Shown piece after piece: positions 15,694-41,252 of a stretch of DNA of 64,000 nt (within the stretch, counting starts at the first letter, position 1; every line of letters starts with the position of its first letter). Location: NCBI GenBank assembly GCA_903903635.1, contig CAIUZK010000256.1, positions 1 to 64,000 of the forward strand, read 5' to 3'. The translations under genes were made by a program, and so were the position numbers. This DNA is from an uncultured Bacteroidota bacterium. GTDB taxonomy: Bacteria; Bacteroidota; Bacteroidia; Chitinophagales; Chitinophagaceae. Under the pieces are notes generated by a model. It was given only the letters and a program-made list of their open reading frames with translations. It did not search any database and was not told the origin of the DNA.

Positions 15694-16326
15694 CTACGAA
15701 AACGTCATCCACTGCTGAATACCGAAAAATGCAATTTTATACCCCGGAAAATACCCCTCGCTGGTGTATGCCAATTCCAGTTTCACAGCCTTGCAGCCCA
15801 GGCAGCACACTATGAGGACATTCTGAGGATCTATAGCTATTATGGTGCCCGGGGCTATGGCGCTGGCATCGCCATCAAGGTTCACATTGCCTATATCCAC
15901 CACCCCTATTTTCCAGCCATTAATGCTTGTTGGTGTGCCCCTGCCTATAGGGTTGCAGCCCTGCACAAGGGCTACAATTTCTTCCGCCTGCATTTATCCC
16001 ACCTTAGGGTTATCTCTGCCTCCCCTACCTTGGGCCAGTATCTCGCCTTACTTTCATTCTGAACTGTAACCGGCATCCCATTCCAGCCACCGGCAACACC
16101 GCTCTCCGCTCTCCGCACCACGCTCTCCGCACCACGCTCTCCGCTCCACGCTCTCCGCTCCCATCTCTCTGCTCCCTGCTCACACAATATGCATTGCCTC
16201 GGCATCAGTATCGGCTGTAGCTACTGCACACAGCACGCCCTCATTCATCAGCCGCATCATCACCGGCATCGCCATTTTGTTGTTGCAGAGCAAGGCAATT
16301 TTTATGTTGCAGTTCATAGCTTTCAT
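15694..16326 (-). pseudogene. Decayed formyltransferase-family gene (Fmt/ArnA-like)
   Basis: Two pieces of one formyltransferase are separated by a tandem repeat. The N-terminal piece (about 16326 to 16180) begins MKAMNCNIKIALLCNNKMAM and continues with PVMMRLMNEGVLCAVATADT, the first strand-helix unit of the formyl transferase N domain, then stops at TGA. The C-terminal piece starts near 16062 with PVTVQNESKARYWPKVGEAE and RWDK. It then needs a one-base frameshift near 15990 to continue as MQAEEIVALVQGCNP and GTIIAIDPQNVL, the linker and C-terminal OB-like domain. About 140 residues of the catalytic domain (where an HxSLLP-type motif would be) are missing. Whether it was a methionyl-tRNA or a sugar formyltransferase cannot be told. 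Confidence 0.6.
16100..16181. repeat. GC-rich 14-bp tandem repeat inside the formyltransferase remnant
   Basis: Units CGCTCTCCGCACCA, CGCTCTCCGCTCCA and CGCTCTCCGCTCCC follow each other at 16121-16162, with degenerate flanking copies. It occupies the place of the missing catalytic core and is far richer in GC than its surroundings. Confidence 0.75.
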
Positions 16327-29799: not shown

Positions 29800-31209
29800 T
29801 TATTTTCCGGTTATTGTATTAATGTATTCAAACAATCCACTGGCAAAACCCATGGTTATCGCGCCAAAAATACAGATTGTCAAAGCTATTTTCAGACTTA
29901 AACTGCCATGAAGTTTTTCAATAGGCCGCTCATTTTCATCAATGAAAATAGCTTTCACCACCTTAAGATAATAAAAGAGGGAGATAACCATATTCATTAC
30001 CGCGATAGAGATCAGCCAGTAATTTCCTTTGGCAGCCCCGGCGGTCACCAGAAACATCTTGGCAAAGAAACCTGCCGTGGGTGGAATACCTGCAAGAGAG
30101 AACAGGCAAATTGCCATTACCCAGGAAGCAAATTTATTGTGGGTATAAAAACCTTTAAAATCACTTATCTTATCCTTCCCTGTTTTGGCAGCCACAAGCG
30201 AGATCACGCCGAATGCCCCGAGATTGGAGAACGTATAAACCATAAGGAAGAAAAGGGCCGATGATACACCCATTATTGTGCCCGATGATATACCCAGTAA
30301 AATATAACCTACCTGGGCTATTGATGAAAATGCCAGAAACCTTTTTATGTTATCCTGACGGATGGCAAACAAATTACCAACTGTAATGGTAAGCAGGATA
30401 GAGAGATACAGCATATGGTACCACATAGGTCCGTAATTCTGAAACAACTGAAACAATGCGGTGATAAAAATGAAAACAATCGATGCCTTTGAAATAACAG
30501 AAAGATAGGCCGTAACGGGCACAGGAGCGCCTTCATATACATCGGCAGTCCATAAATGGAAGGGCACTGATGATAGCTTGAACGCAAACCCCGCAAAAAC
30601 AAAGATAAATGCCAGGGTCTGCAGATTACCATGCCCCAGGAGCGGAGCCATTTCCACAAAATTAAGTGTACCTGTAGTACCATAAAGCATCGAGATACCA
30701 AACAAAAGGATACAGGAAGCAAATGCCGACGACAAGATCATTTTCACCGCCGACTCTGATGATTTAATACTATGCAGGTCATAATTACACAAAGCAGCAA
30801 GTGGTATAGAAGAAAGTTCAAGACCCAGGTAAAACATCAACAGATTGCCGCTGGAGATCATAAAGTCCATACCCAGCAGCGTGCACAGCAACAGGATATA
30901 AAATTCAAGCAGATGCTTATGATCTTTAAGCCAGTCGAAAGCCATCATAGAAATAAGGAACGTACCCACATTCAGAATGGTTTTCTCCAGTACCAAAGTA
31001 TTATTGGTATGAAACATGCCGCTGAACAATTCACCATTGGTATTAAAAAACAAGCCCGCAACCACATTAAGGAACAACAATACATTGGTAATATGCAGAA
31101 GCGAATTATTCGATTTAATACCATCCCACACCTTCAGAAAGAGCAGGAAAAAGATAATACCCGTAAGTATCATCTCCGATTTCATTATTTGCAAATATTC
31201 AATACCCAT
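29800..31209 (-). CDS. nuoN: NADH-quinone oxidoreductase (complex I) subunit N
   Basis: A 469-residue antiporter-like membrane subunit with about fourteen helices. It has the conserved proton-channel region PFHLWTADVYEGAPVPVTAY and, further on, FLAFSSIAQVGYILLG and AGIPPTAGFFAKMFLV, all typical of NuoN. It forms one of the proton-pumping units of the membrane arm. It is preceded by a 28-unit octamer array and followed after 1 nt by the Pro-rich gene. Length is normal for the family. Confidence 0.95.
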   Translation of the reverse strand: MGIEYLQIMKSEMILTGIIFFLLFLKVWDGIKSNNSLLHITNVLLFLNVVAGLFFNTNGELFSGMFHTNNTLVLEKTILNVGTFLISMMAFDWLKDHKHLLEFYILLLCTLLGMDFMISSGNLLMFYLGLELSSIPLAALCNYDLHSIKSSESAVKMILSSAFASCILLFGISMLYGTTGTLNFVEMAPLLGHGNLQTLAFIFVFAGFAFKLSSVPFHLWTADVYEGAPVPVTAYLSVISKASIVFIFITALFQLFQNYGPMWYHMLYLSILLTITVGNLFAIRQDNIKRFLAFSSIAQVGYILLGISSGTIMGVSSALFFLMVYTFSNLGAFGVISLVAAKTGKDKISDFKGFYTHNKFASWVMAICLFSLAGIPPTAGFFAKMFLVTAGAAKGNYWLISIAVMNMVISLFYYLKVVKAIFIDENERPIEKLHGSLSLKIALTICIFGAITMGFASGLFEYINTITGK

Positions 31210-31272: not shown

Positions 31273-31496
31273 ATATCAACTAATCAACTAATCAACAAAT
31301 CAACCAATCAACCTATCAACCTATCAACCTATCAACCTATCAACCTATCAACCTATCAACCAATCAACCTTTCAACCTATCAACCAATCAACTTATCAAC
31401 CATTCAACCTATCAACAAATCAACCTTTCAACCTTTCAACCATTCAACCTATCAACCATTCAACCAATCAACCAATCAACCTATCAACTATTCAAC
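31273..31496 (-). repeat. Octamer array R1, 28 units, between nuoM and nuoN
   Basis: Twenty-eight 8-bp units in unbroken phase. TCAAC is invariant on the plus strand and the other three bases vary within a small set (CTA, CAA, TAA, TTA, CTT, CAT and so on). Read in the transcript direction the unit is GTTGAWNN. The array begins 4 bp past the nuoM stop codon and ends 63 bp before the nuoN start. Confidence 0.95.
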
Positions 31497-31500
31497 AAAC

Positions 31501-33009
31501 CTACCTCCCCACTACGCTTCTAGAAATATTATCCATGATGATCTGTGTATCAGGTGAAATCAGGTTGGTAAGCCAGAAAGGCGCCATACCAATTGCCAGT
31601 ATGCAGAGTATCAAGGTTACAGAAGCAAGTTTTTCATTCCAGCGTGCATCTTTAAATGTCAGGTAATCAGCATTCTTAATTGGTCCCATCCCGGTAGAAC
31701 CTACAGCTCGCAAAATATAGACTGCCGTCACCACAATAGAAGCACAAGCAAGCACAGTAGATACCCGGTAGAAAGTATCCGGATTTTGCCATGAGCCCAT
31801 AAATACGGTCATTTCGGCGGCAAACCCGCTTAAGCCGGGTAAACCAAGTGAACACAAACCCGCTATAACAAAAACAGTAATAATAAATGGAATCGTTTTC
31901 AGCAATCCGCCCAGTTGAGCCACCTGCCTGGTATGTGTGCGCTCATAGATCATGCCAATAGCTGCGAAGAAAAGGGCCGTCATCAAACCATGAGATACCA
32001 TCTGCATTACAGCGCCTGTAATTGCCGTTTTGGTGAGCATGCCAATACCAAAGATCACAAAACCGCAATGGCTCACTGAAGAGTATGCGTTAATGTACTT
32101 AAGATCGGTCTGCATCAGGGTGGCAAATGCCCCGTAAATAATGGCAATCGTAGAAACCAGTATGATGATCCAGGAATACTCATGAGCAGCTTCCGGCATC
32201 AGGAATGCAGCCACCCTGAGGCAACCATACCCACCCAGTTTCATCGATATTCCTGCAAGGAACATAGAAGCTGCTGTTGGCGCTGAAGAGTGACCATCGG
32301 GCGCCCATGTATGAAATGGGAAAATAGCAGTAAACACACCAAACCCAACAAACATGAGCGGGAAAATAAACCGCTGTGCCTCGATAGAAATATGCATATG
32401 CGATATCTTCATCAGGTCGAATGTATGCATCCCGTTTCCTGCATCTGTATTAAAATAAAGACAAAGCAAACCAATAAGTACTAATGCCGATCCGCCCATA
32501 AGCATAAGGGCCAGCTTCATGGCGCTGTATTCCTTCTTGCCGCTGCCCCAAATACCTATCAGCAGGAATTTAGGAATTACGGCCACCTCAAGGAAGAAGA
32601 ACATGGTAAACAAGTCGAGCGAAATGAAAAAGCCATATGCCCCGAAACTCAATAAAACGATCAGGAAAAAGAACTCCTTGGTCATTTTTTCAACGCTCCA
32701 CGAAATAAGTATGCCCGTCATTACCACAACAGCCGTAAGCATGATCATTGCCACCGATATGCCATCTACACCCACATAATACTCAATATTCAGATTGCTG
32801 AACCAGCTCACCTTCGCTTCATAAAGCATAGGCGACTTATTACCGGCAGCACGCTGCGACATATAATCAAACATGATCAGACTGGAGTAACCCAACTGGA
32901 CCACCGACCCAAGCAAGGCCGTCATCCGCACCTGTGCAGCATTACGGCAAAGCATTACCAGCACTGCCGTTACCAGGGGGATTATTAAGAGTATGGATAA
33001 ATTTATCAT
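31501..33009 (-). CDS. nuoM: NADH-quinone oxidoreductase (complex I) subunit M
   Basis: A 502-residue antiporter-like membrane subunit. Markers include FGAYGFFISLDLFTMFFFLE (transmembrane helix 5 region with the essential Glu), FPFHTWAPDGHSSAPTAASM, and AYSSVSHCGFVIFGIG, followed by LPGLSGFAAEMTVFMG. It forms a proton channel in the membrane arm. It lies between two octamer arrays, R2 upstream and R1 downstream, and uses an ATG start. Length is normal for NuoM. Confidence 0.95.
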   Translation of the reverse strand: MINLSILLIIPLVTAVLVMLCRNAAQVRMTALLGSVVQLGYSSLIMFDYMSQRAAGNKSPMLYEAKVSWFSNLNIEYYVGVDGISVAMIMLTAVVVMTGILISWSVEKMTKEFFFLIVLLSFGAYGFFISLDLFTMFFFLEVAVIPKFLLIGIWGSGKKEYSAMKLALMLMGGSALVLIGLLCLYFNTDAGNGMHTFDLMKISHMHISIEAQRFIFPLMFVGFGVFTAIFPFHTWAPDGHSSAPTAASMFLAGISMKLGGYGCLRVAAFLMPEAAHEYSWIIILVSTIAIIYGAFATLMQTDLKYINAYSSVSHCGFVIFGIGMLTKTAITGAVMQMVSHGLMTALFFAAIGMIYERTHTRQVAQLGGLLKTIPFIITVFVIAGLCSLGLPGLSGFAAEMTVFMGSWQNPDTFYRVSTVLACASIVVTAVYILRAVGSTGMGPIKNADYLTFKDARWNEKLASVTLILCILAIGMAPFWLTNLISPDTQIIMDNISRSVVGR

Positions 33010-33115
33010 TTCCTTTCCTATTCTATTATTTCAAAAACATCATACAAAAAAACCTATGAAACTATCACCTTATCAACCTATCCTTGTCCGCCGAAGCTCC
33101 AGCGAAGGAGAAAAC

Positions 33116-33299
33116 CAATCAACTTACCAACCAATCAACCAACCAACCAATCAACTTATCAACTTATCAACTTATCAACCAATCAACCAATCAACCAATC
33201 AACCAATCAACCAATCAACTTATCAACTATTCAACTTATCAACCAATCAACCAATCAACTTATCAACTTATCAACTTATCAACCTATCAACTATTCACC
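33116..33299 (-). repeat. Octamer array R2, 23 units, between nuoL and nuoM
   Basis: Twenty-three 8-bp units in phase of the same family as R1 and R3, mostly CAATCAAC and TTATCAAC, with three imperfect units (TTACCAAC, CAACCAAC, and a final TATTCACC). It begins 5 bp past the nuoL stop. About 105 bp of non-repeat sequence, including a short stray TTATCAACCTATCC piece near 33070, separates it from nuoM. Confidence 0.93.
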
Positions 33300-33304
33300 A
33301 ATCC

Positions 33305-35257
33305 TCACGTCCACAAATAAATAAACACCAGCACAAAGCCAAGCACACCGGCAAAAAAGTAAGCTGCATAATTCTGCACCTTACCCGATTGCAGCCCTTT
33401 TATCAGGAACGATATTTTTCCTGTCACATCCGCCAGCAAGTTCATAAATCCGTCTACTATATTACGATCTATCCATGCTGCCGGACGGCCTATCAGATTA
33501 AACACCACCTTCTTGGTGATGAACAGATAGATCTCATCAATATAAAATTTATGGTAGGCGCCCCTGTACAGGCCACTCATGCCATCAGCCATTTTCTGAG
33601 GTGCAGCGCTCTCCTTTTTATAAAAAGACCAGGCTATAACAATACCCAGTGAAGCCAGTAATACCGGTGCAATAGAGAACGTCGGATGAAATTCTGTCAG
33701 TAAAAACTTACCATCCGATGTCACAAATTTTCCAAATGGAATAAACCCTGCTACAATGGAGAGTAAAGCAAGAAAAAGCAACGGAAACTTCATTGTAAAT
33801 GGCGCTTCGCCATAATGGGCATCATGACCTCCATGACTATCTCCATGAGCATGATATTCTTTGTTCCAGAAAATATTGAAATACAAACGGAACATATAAA
33901 AAGCTGTTATTGCCGCAGTAAGAATGGCAATACCAAATATGGCTTTATTAGAATTGAATGCAGCCTGTAGTATTTCTTCCTTGCTGAAGAATCCCGCAAA
34001 AGGAGGTATGCCGGCTATAGCCAGGCAAGCTATCAAGAAAGTAAGATGAGTCACCGGCATTAATTTCCTGAGGCCGCCCATATCTTTCATCTCATTGCTA
34101 TGCACATAATGGATCACTGCGCCGGCGCCAAGGAACAACAGGGCCTTGAACATGGCATGTGTAAACAAGTGGAACATAGATGCCATGTACCCCAGGCCAT
34201 TCTCGCCACCATAGCGCGATACACCAAGGGCAAACATCATGTACCCTATCTGAGACATAGTAGAATATGCCAATACCCGCTTGATATCGGTTTGGGTACA
34301 GGCAATGATAGCAGCAATAAAGGAAGAAGAAGCGCCCACCCACATCACAATATCGAGTGCCGTGGGGCAACTAATTGAATATACAGGGAACAACCGTGCT
34401 ACCAGAAACACACCTGCTACCACCATGGTCGCCGCATGAATCAATGCAGATACAGGCGTTGGACCTTCCATCGCATCGGGCAACCATATGTGCAGCGGGA
34501 ACATAGCCGATTTACCTGCGCCGCCTATAAACACCAGCACCAGGCCCCATGTAAGTGCTGAGCACCCCAGAAATGATGCAGCCATAATACTATGCAACTG
34601 GTCGGTAGGGGTAGTCAGCCTGGTAATCAATGTCTGAAAATCGAGTGTGCCGGCATAATAAGATAACACCAATATACCTACCAGGAAACCAAGGTCAGCA
34701 AAACGGGTCACAATAAACGCCTTCTTCGATGCCGCCACAGCCGATGGTTTATCGAAATAGTACCCAATCAGCAGGTAAGAGGAAACACCCACCAACTCCC
34801 AGAATATGTATATCTGGAAAATATTGGACGACATCACCAGGCCAAGCATAGAGAAAGTAAACAGACCAAGGAAGGAATAATAAGTAGCATAACGCTCTTC
34901 GCCCTTCATATACCCCAGGCTGTAAAAATGCACCATCAATGAAATAAGCGTAACCACTACCAGCATCATAACAGAAATAGGATCCAGCAGGATGCCCATA
35001 TCAATCGCAACATTGGGCGTAAACTGCAGCCAGGTCATTTTGAACGGAATGATCTGCTGATATACCTCGCCCACCTTACCCACTACAAAAAAATAATCGT
35101 AGGCAACCGTAGCTGCCAGCAGGAATGAGGTTAATAAAGAAAGGGTACCCAATATCCCGCACAATGAAGGAAAGTACTTTCTGCCTGCCAGTGCTATCAG
35201 CACAAACGTCAGCAGTGGCAGAAGCGGTATTAATATGATTAATGATGTACTCAGCAT
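33305..35257 (-). CDS. nuoL: NADH-quinone oxidoreductase (complex I) subunit L
   Basis: A 650-residue distal antiporter-like subunit. It has LFTFSMLGLVMSSNIFQIYI, FWELVGVSSYLLIGYYF, the channel region MFPLHIWLPDAMEGPTPVSA, LIHAATMVVAGVFLVARLFP, and LAYSTMSQIGYMMFALGVSR. The C-terminal part contains the long lateral (HL) helix region and a last membrane segment. It starts 5 nt after nuoK, the usual coupling, and array R2 follows its stop. Confidence 0.95.
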   Translation of the reverse strand: MLSTSLIILIPLLPLLTFVLIALAGRKYFPSLCGILGTLSLLTSFLLAATVAYDYFFVVGKVGEVYQQIIPFKMTWLQFTPNVAIDMGILLDPISVMMLVVVTLISLMVHFYSLGYMKGEERYATYYSFLGLFTFSMLGLVMSSNIFQIYIFWELVGVSSYLLIGYYFDKPSAVAASKKAFIVTRFADLGFLVGILVLSYYAGTLDFQTLITRLTTPTDQLHSIMAASFLGCSALTWGLVLVFIGGAGKSAMFPLHIWLPDAMEGPTPVSALIHAATMVVAGVFLVARLFPVYSISCPTALDIVMWVGASSSFIAAIIACTQTDIKRVLAYSTMSQIGYMMFALGVSRYGGENGLGYMASMFHLFTHAMFKALLFLGAGAVIHYVHSNEMKDMGGLRKLMPVTHLTFLIACLAIAGIPPFAGFFSKEEILQAAFNSNKAIFGIAILTAAITAFYMFRLYFNIFWNKEYHAHGDSHGGHDAHYGEAPFTMKFPLLFLALLSIVAGFIPFGKFVTSDGKFLLTEFHPTFSIAPVLLASLGIVIAWSFYKKESAAPQKMADGMSGLYRGAYHKFYIDEIYLFITKKVVFNLIGRPAAWIDRNIVDGFMNLLADVTGKISFLIKGLQSGKVQNYAAYFFAGVLGFVLVFIYLWT

Positions 35258-38177: not shown

Positions 38178-39323
38178 TTAAAAATGCCAACCCATTATCG
38201 CCATCACAGTTACCAGAATTGTATTTACCATACTGATTGGCAACAAATATTTCCACTCCAGTGTCAACAACTGGTCAACACGCAACCTGGGGAATGTCCA
38301 CCTGAACTGCATGATGATAAATATCACGAAAAATGTTTTACTCAAAAACCAAAGCGAAGATGGCACATAATCCATTATATGGTTAAACGCCTCCCAATGC
38401 CCTATATGAAATGGCATCCATCCTCCAAGGAACAACGTCGCTGCTATTGCAGATACCACAAACAAGTTGATATACTCTGCCAGCAGGAACATTGCAAACT
38501 TCATACCTGCATATTCAGTATGGAATCCTGCTGTAAGTTCCTGCTCAGCCTCTGCAAGGTCAAATGGCGCACGATTAATTTCGGCCGTAGATGCTATTAC
38601 AAAAATCACAAAAGAGATCAGCACCGGCAGGTGGCCCCTGAATATCCACCAACCCGTTTCCTGGCTCATTACAATGTCCGACATTTTCAGGCTACCGGTA
38701 AGAATTACAATAGAGATAAGCGATAACCCGACCGATAATTCATAACTAACTATCTGTGCCCCGCTACGCATGGCGCCCAGCAGCGAATATTTATTATAAC
38801 TGCTCCATCCTGCCATCAGGATACCAATAACAGCCAGCGATGAAATTGCAGACACATACAGCACTCCTATATTAATATCCCATAGCTGGAAATCCTTTGC
38901 AAATGCAATGGGAGCAATAACGAGCATACAGGTAACAACAACGATAACAGGAGCAAGGTTAAACAGGAATTTATCTGATCCGGTAGGAGTAAGACCTTCT
39001 TTCATTAGCAGCTTTACGGTATCAGCCACGATCTGAAGTGAGCCATAAGGACCTACCCTGTTCGGGCCATACCTCATTTGCATAAACCCTGCAACCTTTC
39101 GCTCCATATAACCCAGAACAAAACACAGTGGTACCAAAAACAATAACAGGGCTACCCCGGCTATTACCATCTCTATTACCTTTGCCAGCAATTCGCTTGC
39201 TATATTACTCACCAGCCAGTGATGTATACCACCTGCTATTGACGAAAAGCTGACCATAAGAAGTAAGTTCAATTTCTGACTATTTAATTTATCAACAATC
39301 CCGGAATTAATATTCAAATTCAC
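38178..39323 (-). CDS. nuoH: NADH-quinone oxidoreductase (complex I) subunit H
   Basis: A 381-residue membrane subunit at the quinone chamber and junction of the two arms. The core reads [60 protein letters not shown] and [18 protein letters not shown] at 39321-39323 overlaps the stop of the Uma2 gene as GTGA. That start gives about 60 residues before the usual first helix, longer than most NuoH, so an internal ATG near 39257 is possible. nuoG normally precedes nuoH; here a nuclease-like gene does. Confidence 0.95.
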
Positions 39324-39931
39324 TTGTTGTGAACCTGCATAGTAATCACTTTTGTCTTTTTATAAACTTCTTTTAATGTTAATGAAATACCTATCGAATT
39401 TAATTCTAGTACTTCATCAATATCATTGTATTCTTTTAACTCCCAAAATCCATTACTATTGATATGATACGCTTCAATAATTACTGATAATGGATCAACT
39501 AAAACATATTCTTTCAAAGAATCCAATTCACGGTAAAACTTAAATTTCTCACCTCTGTCATAATTTTTTGTAGAAGGCGAAAGAACTTCAAAAATCACTT
39601 TAGGGTTCATTACATTCATCTGGTCGTTGTTGAGCGTAACTGGGTCTCCGCAAACAACCGTAACATCGGGATAGAAAAACGAATCAAGTTCTTCTATATA
39701 AACCCGCATATTGGAGTTATATGGTTGACACGGTTTGTCATTGAGTTCAGTTGAGAGCGCATTAAAAATATTTCCTTCAACAACAATATGTGGCAATTTA
39801 GCTCCCGACATAGCAAATATCTCACCACCATAATATTCATGCTTGATAACTGAAGTATTTTCCATCTCCAGATATTCTGCTATAGAATATTTCCGATTCC
39901 CATATGCCGCTGCCGGTTCTTTAACTTCCAT
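39320..39931 (-). CDS. Uma2 family (DUF820) putative PD-(D/E)XK endonuclease
   Basis: A 203-residue protein of the Uma2/DUF820 family. It has [20 protein letters not shown] near the start, [12 protein letters not shown] (catalytic Asp about residue 89), and [20 protein letters not shown] (catalytic Glu about 115). [16 protein letters not shown] follows. The fold is restriction-endonuclease-like; cellular roles are unclear, and the genes are abundant in cyanobacteria and some Bacteroidota. It is inserted between the nuoD-side octamer array and nuoH, overlapping the nuoH start by 4 nt, so it is co-translated with a core respiratory gene. Acquired cargo is the simplest explanation. Confidence 0.85.
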
Positions 39932-39963: not shown

Positions 39964-40123
39964 CCATCAACCAATCAACCAATCAACCAATCAACCAATC
40001 AACTTATCAACTTATCAACCAATCAACCAATCAACCAATCAACCAATCAACCAATCAACCAATCAACCAATCAACCAATCAACTTATCAACTTATCAACC
40101 AATCAACCTATCAACTTATCAAC
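39964..40123 (-). repeat. Octamer array R3, 20 units, between nuoD and the Uma2 gene
   Basis: Twenty 8-bp units in perfect phase, all ending TCAAC on the plus strand; dominated by CAATCAAC with TTATCAAC, one CTATCAAC and one CCATCAAC. It begins 7 bp past the nuoD stop and ends about 32 bp before the Uma2 start. Confidence 0.95.
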
Positions 40124-40130
40124 TACAAAC

Positions 40131-41252
40131 TCACCTGTCCACATCCGGAATAATAAGATCTATAGTCGACATAATAGCCACCAGATCCCCGATCTTAGAC
40201 CCTCTGGCTACTTTATCAAGCGCACAGAGATTACTGAAATTGGGAGACCTGTACTTTATTCTGTAAGGAGAAGCGGCTCCATCACTTACAATGAATACGC
40301 CTAACTCGCCCCGGGCTGTTTCTACCCTCTGGTAAAATTCACCTTTTGGCAATTTGAGCACCATCTTTGTCTTTGCCTGAAAATCTCCTTCCGGAATATT
40401 ATCAATCAGTTGTTCTATTATCGATACAGATTGCCTCATTTCATGCATGCGAACCATGTATCGTGAATAACAATCTCCTTCCTTACCAAGTATTTCATCA
40501 AACTGCACTTTGTCATATCCATCATACGGGAACCATTTACGCACATCACAACTTACGCCTGAACCTCTTGCCATTGGCCCGGTACAGCCATATGAAATGG
40601 CATCTTCAGCCGATAAAAAACCAACATCCTTATTCCTGTTTTGAAAAATCACGTTCCCGGTAAGCACATCATCATACTCCTTGAACTTCGACTTGATCTG
40701 TTTCATCACATCCTTTGTCCGTTTCTGGAAATTAGGATGAATATCAACCATAACTCCTCCTGGCACAGCATAATTCTGAGTAAGGCGTGCACCACAGGTT
40801 TCTTCCATTATCTCAAGTATAGCTTCCCGCTCACGAAATGCATAAAAAAACGGAGAAACAGCGCCAAGGTCAAGCCCGGTACATCCCCACCACAACTGGT
40901 GCGAGGCAAGCCTGGTTAGTTCGGCCATTATTAACCTTATCATCTGTGCCCTTGGTGGCGCTTCAATCTGTAATCCTTTCTCAACACATAAAGCACAAGC
41001 CTGATTGTTGATGTGGGCGCTCAGGTAATCCATCCTGCTGGTAGCATAGATAAAGTTGCGGTAAGAAAGACTTTCCGACATCTTTTCGATAGAGCGATGA
41101 ATATAGCCCAGGTGAGGTTGCACCTTCTTTATCGTCTCTCCATCCAGCCATACCTTTAAATGAAGCACACCATGTGTAGATGGGTGCTGTGGCCCAATGT
41201 TAATAACGAATTCCCCTTCTTCGGTAACAATATCTTCTCCCAACAAACTCAT
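40131..41252 (-). CDS. nuoD: NADH-quinone oxidoreductase (complex I) subunit D
   Basis: A 373-residue, 49-kDa-type subunit that lines the quinone site with NuoB. Motifs include FVINIGPQHPSTHGVLHLKV (quinone-site His), LGYIHRSIEKMSESLSYRNF, PFFYAFREREAILEIMEETC and the C-terminal DLVAIMSTIDLIIPDVDR. The start overlaps the nuoC stop as ATGA. Not fused to NuoC, unlike E. coli. In standard operons nuoE follows; here array R3 does. Confidence 0.96.
   Translation of the reverse strand: MSLLGEDIVTEEGEFVINIGPQHPSTHGVLHLKVWLDGETIKKVQPHLGYIHRSIEKMSESLSYRNFIYATSRMDYLSAHINNQACALCVEKGLQIEAPPRAQMIRLIMAELTRLASHQLWWGCTGLDLGAVSPFFYAFREREAILEIMEETCGARLTQNYAVPGGVMVDIHPNFQKRTKDVMKQIKSKFKEYDDVLTGNVIFQNRNKDVGFLSAEDAISYGCTGPMARGSGVSCDVRKWFPYDGYDKVQFDEILGKEGDCYSRYMVRMHEMRQSVSIIEQLIDNIPEGDFQAKTKMVLKLPKGEFYQRVETARGELGVFIVSDGAASPYRIKYRSPNFSNLCALDKVARGSKIGDLVAIMSTIDLIIPDVDR

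Follow-up and report, generated by a model that had tools for sequence, protein, structure and literature searches.

Octamer arrays with a TCAAC core mostly lie against gene edges in one orientation

What is the array of short repeats that stands directly behind a complex I gene of an uncultured Chitinophagaceae bacterium, how does it grow, and why does it stand there? In the 64,000-nt stretch of DNA analysed here (the window), positions 31273-31496 are taken up by 28 octamers (NNNTCAAC), with the pentamer TCAAC in 28 of 28 units and no phase break. A first-pass annotation of the same DNA had described 28 octamers in unbroken 8-bp phase directly after the nuoM stop and a TCAAC constant in every unit, and the recount bears out both descriptions. 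The array (R1, 31276..31496, plus strand) consists of 28 TCAAC cores with 27 triplets between them, and its TCAAC-3' end lies 4 bp off the TAG stop codon of nuoM (31501..33009, minus strand). This gene matches Proton_antipo_M and its C-terminus aligns with those of relatives; the name NuoM for the ORF 31501-33009 is taken from its position, with an L-like subunit on one side and an N-like one on the other. A nuoN-like gene (29800..31209, minus strand) has its start codon 66 bp from the TCAAC-5' side of R1. Read in the sense of the nuo operon mRNA the unit is GTTGAWWR.

Two more arrays in the window have the core, the strand and the placement of R1 relative to the gene ending alongside. R2 (33151..33291, plus strand) comprises 18 perfect cores, with imperfect units back to about 33113, and lies 13 bp off the TGA stop of nuoL (33305..35257, minus strand). 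R3 (39967..40123, plus strand) has 20 perfect cores and lies 7 bp off the TGA stop of the gene for the complex I 49-kDa subunit (40131..41252, minus strand). A three-unit pattern with up to two mismatches matches the window 67 times, compared with a mean of 0.11 and a largest value of 2 in 100 dinucleotide-preserving shuffles; therefore, R1 is not a product of chance. Rfam at gathering scores gives no match in the window or in the loci L025, L034, L074 and L085, hence no known structured RNA there. The window also contains a C-rich array of CCGCTCT with a 7/14-bp period (16099-16181) and, among the complex I genes beside R3, a Uma2-family gene (39320-39931; putative restriction endonuclease fold).

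A genome-wide search, suggested as a check by the first-pass annotation, finds 430 four-unit matches (274 + 156) in the genome of the window (G000; 275 contigs, 5.27 Mb). Forty stretches chosen around listed arrays contain, together with the window (725 kb in total), 63 perfect arrays with lengths of 4-31 units, which comprise 608 cores. Several contigs of G000 (C32, C110, C30, C84 and others) start or stop in or near an array, so that assembly probably fails in long arrays and understates their length. A second nuoL/M/N-like gene cluster is found at G000:C86:1400-6107, two of whose matches contain one in-frame TAA each.

The 27 triplets of R1 are of eight kinds; 25 of them read YWW and the other two AAA. 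In G000 as a whole the triplet positions are Y in 95%, W in 98% and W in 97%, and position 7 is A in 37% and T in 62%, in total A or T in 98%. The eight kinds are common in the arrays, unlike scattered point variants of one word, and the restriction of position 7 to A or T, with both frequent, hardly looks like drift of a single word, because A-to-G and T-to-C changes would be expected at least as frequently. Of the internal cores that have two perfect neighbours to either side, only 8 of 364 are imperfect (3 of 93 in the genome G031). The original picture of a fixed core with three varying bases thus holds for the core, while the triplet is restricted, mostly to YWW; constraint is visible on the core and on position 7. 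A strict rule of G-free triplets is broken by G031, where the core is TCAAC too and 18% of the triplets end in G (position 8).

Neighbouring triplets in G000 are identical more often (0.357 at lag 1, 0.372 at lag 2) than in shuffles within the same arrays (0.289 and 0.291), and since identity between arrays amounts to 0.157, triplets are more alike within an array than between arrays. In G031 the excess has the same direction, but lies inside the shuffle noise. Because of this likeness at lags 1-2, we conclude that the arrays grow through local duplication of one or a few whole 8-bp units. Copying in 8-bp steps, as proposed at the outset, is thereby supported; the accompanying statement that the arrays are unlike slippage was too strong, since whole-unit duplication accounts for the runs. 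Compared with a microsatellite formed by slippage of one word, the arrays of G000 lack the single repeated word and share the local unit duplication.

The arrays are polar: the C-rich strand, which reads TCAAC, lies with its 3' end against a gene edge, and the other side is far off. For scoring, arrays were clustered and read in the TCAAC direction, and from both ends the distance to the closest predicted gene was measured, gene edges being defined by a custom gene finder (with a coding fraction of 0.73-0.85) or, for stretches of the genome collection, by the longest ORFs. An initial, cruder gene finder placed the nearer gene on the TCAAC-3' side in 32 of 37 cases, and with the better one 37 of the 39 evaluable arrays of G000 (54 clusters) are polar. 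The same is true for 24 of 26 in G031 (28 clusters, one within an ORF), for 13 of 14 in G006 (6/7), G011 (4/4) and G032 (3/3) taken together, and for the single evaluable array in each of two further members of the order. In G000 and G031 the median distance to a gene is 15 bp on the TCAAC-3' side and 225-230 bp on the other. Stop codons within 20 bp are found on the 3' side of 22 (G000) and 11 (G031) arrays and on the 5' side of none in either genome; start codons within 60 bp on the 3' side of 9 and 10 arrays versus 1 and 0 on the 5' side. Several start-facing arrays run up to a TAnnTTTG box (TCAACCTACCTTTGCCTCATGG in L097, TCAACCTATCTTTGCGCC in L109), which is the -7 element of Bacteroidetes promoters according to PMC6847099. 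The polarity of the TCAAC arrays is new here and, like the other words used by relatives, goes beyond the first-pass annotation. Among the titles that a literature search listed, the word GTTGATTG included, none concerns TCAAC octamers, which is weak evidence as subscription journals are mostly uncovered.

The polarity could be an artefact of truncated ORFs or of spacer composition. Nine of the genes that end flush with an array have a close homologue, and all nine align to within five residues of both C-termini, so that the stops beside the arrays are native; ORF truncation is ruled out for these nine, the other 12 of 21 having no close homologue in the DNA searched. Ordinary spacers with arrays masked have a GC skew between -0.14 and +0.11 in all bins and sets, after stops as well as before starts, which is too little to make spacer composition the source. 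With native stops and little spacer skew, the polarity therefore belongs to the arrays. The adjoining genes themselves carry a trace: in the last 15 coding nucleotides of flush genes of G000, G amounts to 0.45 and C to 0.08, compared with 0.24 and 0.15 in 349 other genes (p=6e-9), and these nucleotides are also G-rich in G031 (p=0.002) and in the remaining genomes (p=0.05).

A scan of a genome collection with the YWW pattern yields at least 117 stretches from many phyla; as the pattern required YWW, this sample is uninformative on the triplets. Among the matches listed are Bacteroidota, Verrucomicrobia, Kiritimatiellae, Lentisphaera-named bins, Anaerolineae, several Proteobacteria and others, and among these listed matches 60 of 82 evaluable arrays are polar (p=3e-5), 42 of 58 if one array per genome is taken, with 26 of 36 in Bacteroidota and 28 of 39 outside. 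Stops within 20 bp are distributed 32 to 3 and starts within 60 bp 16 to 11 among the same listed matches, the latter being barely polar, and in 33 of the 82 evaluable arrays all triplets are of one kind. Random placement in other genomes and a sequencing or assembly artefact were the two outcomes that the first-pass annotation had named as speaking against it. Neither is found: the arrays elsewhere are polar and near gene edges, and they occur in many independent assemblies, named isolates such as Flavisolibacter ginsengisoli DSM 18119 included, by which an assembly artefact is rejected.

Among 60 genomes, the own one and others from its genus and order, a six-unit pattern occurs in 11. The own genome is among these, as are 7 of the 34 remaining genomes of the genus, and G016 and G040, also among the 11, match a reversed control just as often. 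In a phylum-wide draw 10 of 395 genomes match, the own included. Most of the other nine contain single-word runs, and G092 from the same family matches with mixed triplets. A nuoM homologue is present in 12 relatives, and a single one of them, G032, has an array, a degenerate one, in the nuoM-nuoN spacer. Arrays also recur at one and the same gene end in G031, where the protein is 93% identical, and in G006 (83%); among the 9 gene pairs listed with array-bearing genomes, 3 have an array in common.

Those sampled relatives that lack TCAAC arrays possess phased arrays of other words: YWCCAAA, YTATCWC, AACTGYM, TTAACCNW, TCATMAY and AGACTTW-like ones. In G027 an array of CACATTNN (L316 15025-15473; 8 bp, about 450 bp long, with a variable doublet) ends at TTACCTTTGCCCGATGG, a -7 promoter box followed by the start codon. 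With a stricter scan the samples of G028, G012, G010, G013 and G001 contain no array of another word, and the sample of G025 a single one, inside a gene. Oriented by their C-rich strand, five of six evaluable arrays whose lag identity is 0.86 or more, a threshold set after the rows were seen, have the gene edge nearer to the 3' side. If all printed rows are counted, weak and A/T-rich ones included, the polarity is 6/13 and, in a second set in which two halves of one array were merged and which has two loci in common with the first, 5/8. Independence of the polarity from the word inside the genus is thus a lead; it gains weight because the same polarity is published for GGGAATC and GGGGA(C/T)T and can be read from the TAACTGA sets of Flexibacter litoralis.

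As to the function, we tentatively favour the proposal that the RNA of the arrays may act like a Rho-utilisation (Rut) site and end transcription heading for the gene edge, a reading drawn from sequence which we regard as possible, though not as probable. RNA coming from outside toward the edge would be either antisense RNA entering the 3' end of a gene or readthrough into a promoter. Such RNA would be C-rich, G-poor, unfolded, ribosome-free and rich in YC steps; it would thus resemble a Rut site, and its transcription would be ended at the edge. The RNA leaving the gene (GUUGAWWR), being without C, would not be bound by Rho, and the gene's own transcript would pass. One function would in this way suit stop and start edges alike, because incoming transcription ends and outgoing transcription passes. 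Selection would purge the opposite orientation and keep those triplets that leave the C-rich strand G-free and unfolded.

Several properties, among them the polarity itself and the native stops beside the arrays, are consistent with this proposal. The C-rich-strand RNA has a C content of 0.32 and a G content of 0.02 in the 80 nt before the edge, and 14.5 YC steps per 80 nt, where the other strand has 0.9 and random 80-mers have 9.0. Its minimum free energy per nt (kcal/mol) is -0.004 in one set (29 arrays) and -0.006 in another (10 arrays), versus -0.207 for random stretches of the window, and in 39 of 39 cases (29/29 and 10/10) folding is weaker than for the same arrays with random triplets. 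On the antisense strand the C-richness continues into the gene, whose last 15 coding nucleotides are G-rich, and the organism has a rho gene (TIGR00767, 637 bits at a cut-off of 509). Rut sites are C-rich, G-poor and unstructured over 70-80 nt according to PMC6407284, and in B. subtilis about 80% of the Rut peaks are antisense to genes, as given in PMC12350095. In composition, lack of structure and mostly antisense position the octamers are like the Rut sites of these papers; natural Rut sites, in contrast, have neither a tandem array nor an invariant core, and the octamers have both.

Other observations argue against a Rut function. An invariant 5-mer in exact phase is unnecessary for Rho. 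While 20 of the 63 perfect arrays, R1-R3 among them, reach 77 nt, 43 are shorter and many of these are too short for a full Rut site. G000 has no excess of neighbouring genes that would fire into an array, neither of convergent ones (6/19 versus 62/211 gene ends, p=0.8) nor of tandem ones (5/8 versus 149/255, p=1.0), and G031 has only a trend (p=0.09 and 0.11). The triplets of G031 that end in G, and start edges that are barely polar in the collection scan, do not fit well either. A structured sense RNA was considered separately and rejected: R1 has z=-8.7 against dinucleotide shuffles, yet the GTTGA strand (-0.135 per nt) is less folded than random stretches of the window, and the order of the units has no effect on its folding.

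A doubtful but serious alternative is that 7-8-bp arrays arise by ordinary slippage or unequal exchange, while selection merely filters the sites where they survive, without any positive function. In the GTTGA sense an array has stops in all three frames and would be harmless after a stop codon, in the TCAAC sense it is stop-free and would not be harmless, and a G-rich strand would be avoided upstream of promoters. The local unit duplication agrees with this, as does the turnover of the arrays, seen in the single spacer array among the 12 nuoM relatives, though 3 of 9 gene pairs share theirs. Moreover, the unit can supply a TAG, and in G000 TAG is the stop of 15 of 21 flush genes versus 92 of 349 others (p=4e-5); this excess is absent in G031 (4/9, p=0.27) and in the remaining genomes (2/8). 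A filter leaves unaccounted for why arrays are flush with genes (0-20 bp) instead of scattered over the spacer. It is also at odds with GGGAATC of Xanthomonas, which by our reading of the word is stop-free both ways and whose polarity, according to PMC4692102, is alike.

We consider it unlikely that the polarity is a birthmark of mutagenesis at transcription edges, in which untranslated G-rich RNA leaving a gene end or promoter would cause R-loops or stalled forks and thereby slippage, so that arrays would arise at edges, the G-rich strand being the non-template one. This would explain the flush position and the strand, and it agrees with the G-rich coding tails and with a presumed displaced strand without C. 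GGGG occurs in the last 40 coding nucleotides of 8 of 21 flush genes of G000 versus 22 of 349 others; the excess is absent in G031 (2/9, p=0.63) and in the remaining genomes (0/8). By an energy estimate, RNA:DNA hybrids of the arrays are no stabler than the duplex and the strands hardly differ, so that an R-loop formed through hybrid stability finds no support, and start-side arrays would require divergent transcription.

Less likely still is a protein that coats the array as double-stranded DNA, contacting TCAAC via the major groove and W via the minor groove with a cooperative 8-bp spacing. The rarity of core changes (8/364) agrees with this, and a position 7 confined to A or T, both common, is what minor-groove contact predicts, but neighbouring species have other words in a similar layout, and 8 bp is not a helical turn. 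That a RAYT/Y1 transposase mobilises array and REP-like hairpin as one element is very improbable and largely refuted by the counts: hairpins lie in octamer phase beside several arrays and L074 has a 39-bp tandem, but the hairpin pattern is absent from the array-rich G031 and present in 12 copies in G025, which has no array match, and Y1_Tnp counts are unrelated to arrays (two in G000, one in G032, ten in the array-free G008).

The REP-like hairpin (CCCGCC...GGCGGG) itself sits between TC and AAC of an octamer (L074 395-515, and in the window, plus strand, with its core at 33088..33111 on the TCAAC-5' side of R2, in octamer phase). It is found beside some arrays only, and also in relatives without TCAAC arrays. 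A dispersed element of about 105 bp with inverted ends (ATTGCACAC...GTGTGCAAT; L034 9240-10200, L074 555-665 and 865-965) occurs in several copies, which often adjoin a TCAAC array and follow short ORF starts that resemble one another; it has no Rfam match.

For decades, short intergenic tandem arrays of bacteria have been listed with no function assigned to them. Polar placement that occurs without G-tracts, in several species and, at stops, across phyla narrows the matter to a small set of testable causes. The proposed Rut-like action, if true, would make the arrays modular and tunable insulators; if the mutagenesis reading were true, they would be relics of repeats to which transcription gave rise at gene ends. 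The placement of the arrays, in one orientation against gene edges, suggests that they may be a simple DNA device which keeps stray transcription out of genes.

Among known repeat families, the cyanobacterial STRR sequences and long simple sequence repeats have species-specific 7-8-bp units and are dispersed and intergenic like the octamers; to our knowledge, neither polarity nor a class-restricted triplet is part of their definitions. Closest in placement are the quadruplex-forming heptamers GGGAATC of Xanthomonas and GGGGA(C/T)T of Nostoc, for which PMC4692102 gives the same polarity: the 5' neighbouring ORF, whatever its direction, is 28 nt away and the next one 160 nt. These heptamers and the octamers are both short, phased, dispersed and mostly intergenic arrays, and the length of the heptamer arrays varies between relatives. 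The heptamers differ by their 7-bp period, G-tracts and quadruplexes, the octamers having 8 bp, GTTGAWWR and no GGG, and by a preference for four units, compared with up to 31 in the octamer arrays. As in the heptamers, the G-rich strand of the octamers leaves the ORF edge (37/39 and 24/26; 60/82 among the matches listed in the collection scan). Because the octamers are polar without G-tracts, a quadruplex cannot be the general cause.

The TAACTGA direct repeats, reported in PMC4679880 from Beggiatoaceae, Cyanobacteria and five Bacteroidetes with up to 43 copies, resemble the octamers in being intergenic, phased and without G-tracts, and the polarity is readable in the sets of Flexibacter litoralis given there. 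They consist of one invariant 7-mer and thus differ in word and period. Their author proposes translational regulation near start codons; among the octamer arrays 9 (G000) and 10 (G031) face a start within 60 bp, and 22 and 11 a stop within 20 bp. One might go further and suppose that many phyla repeatedly build one device from any 7-8-bp word, a polar, self-extending array pressed to the edge and insulating genes from incoming transcription. The word would then be a dialect and the C-rich, G-poor, unfolded strand toward the edge the constant, with the quadruplex heptamers, TAACTGA and the octamers as instances, but a generalization of this breadth is improbable. The octamers belong with the dispersed short-unit intergenic tandem arrays, and they have the placement of the G-rich heptamers without the G-tract that defines those.
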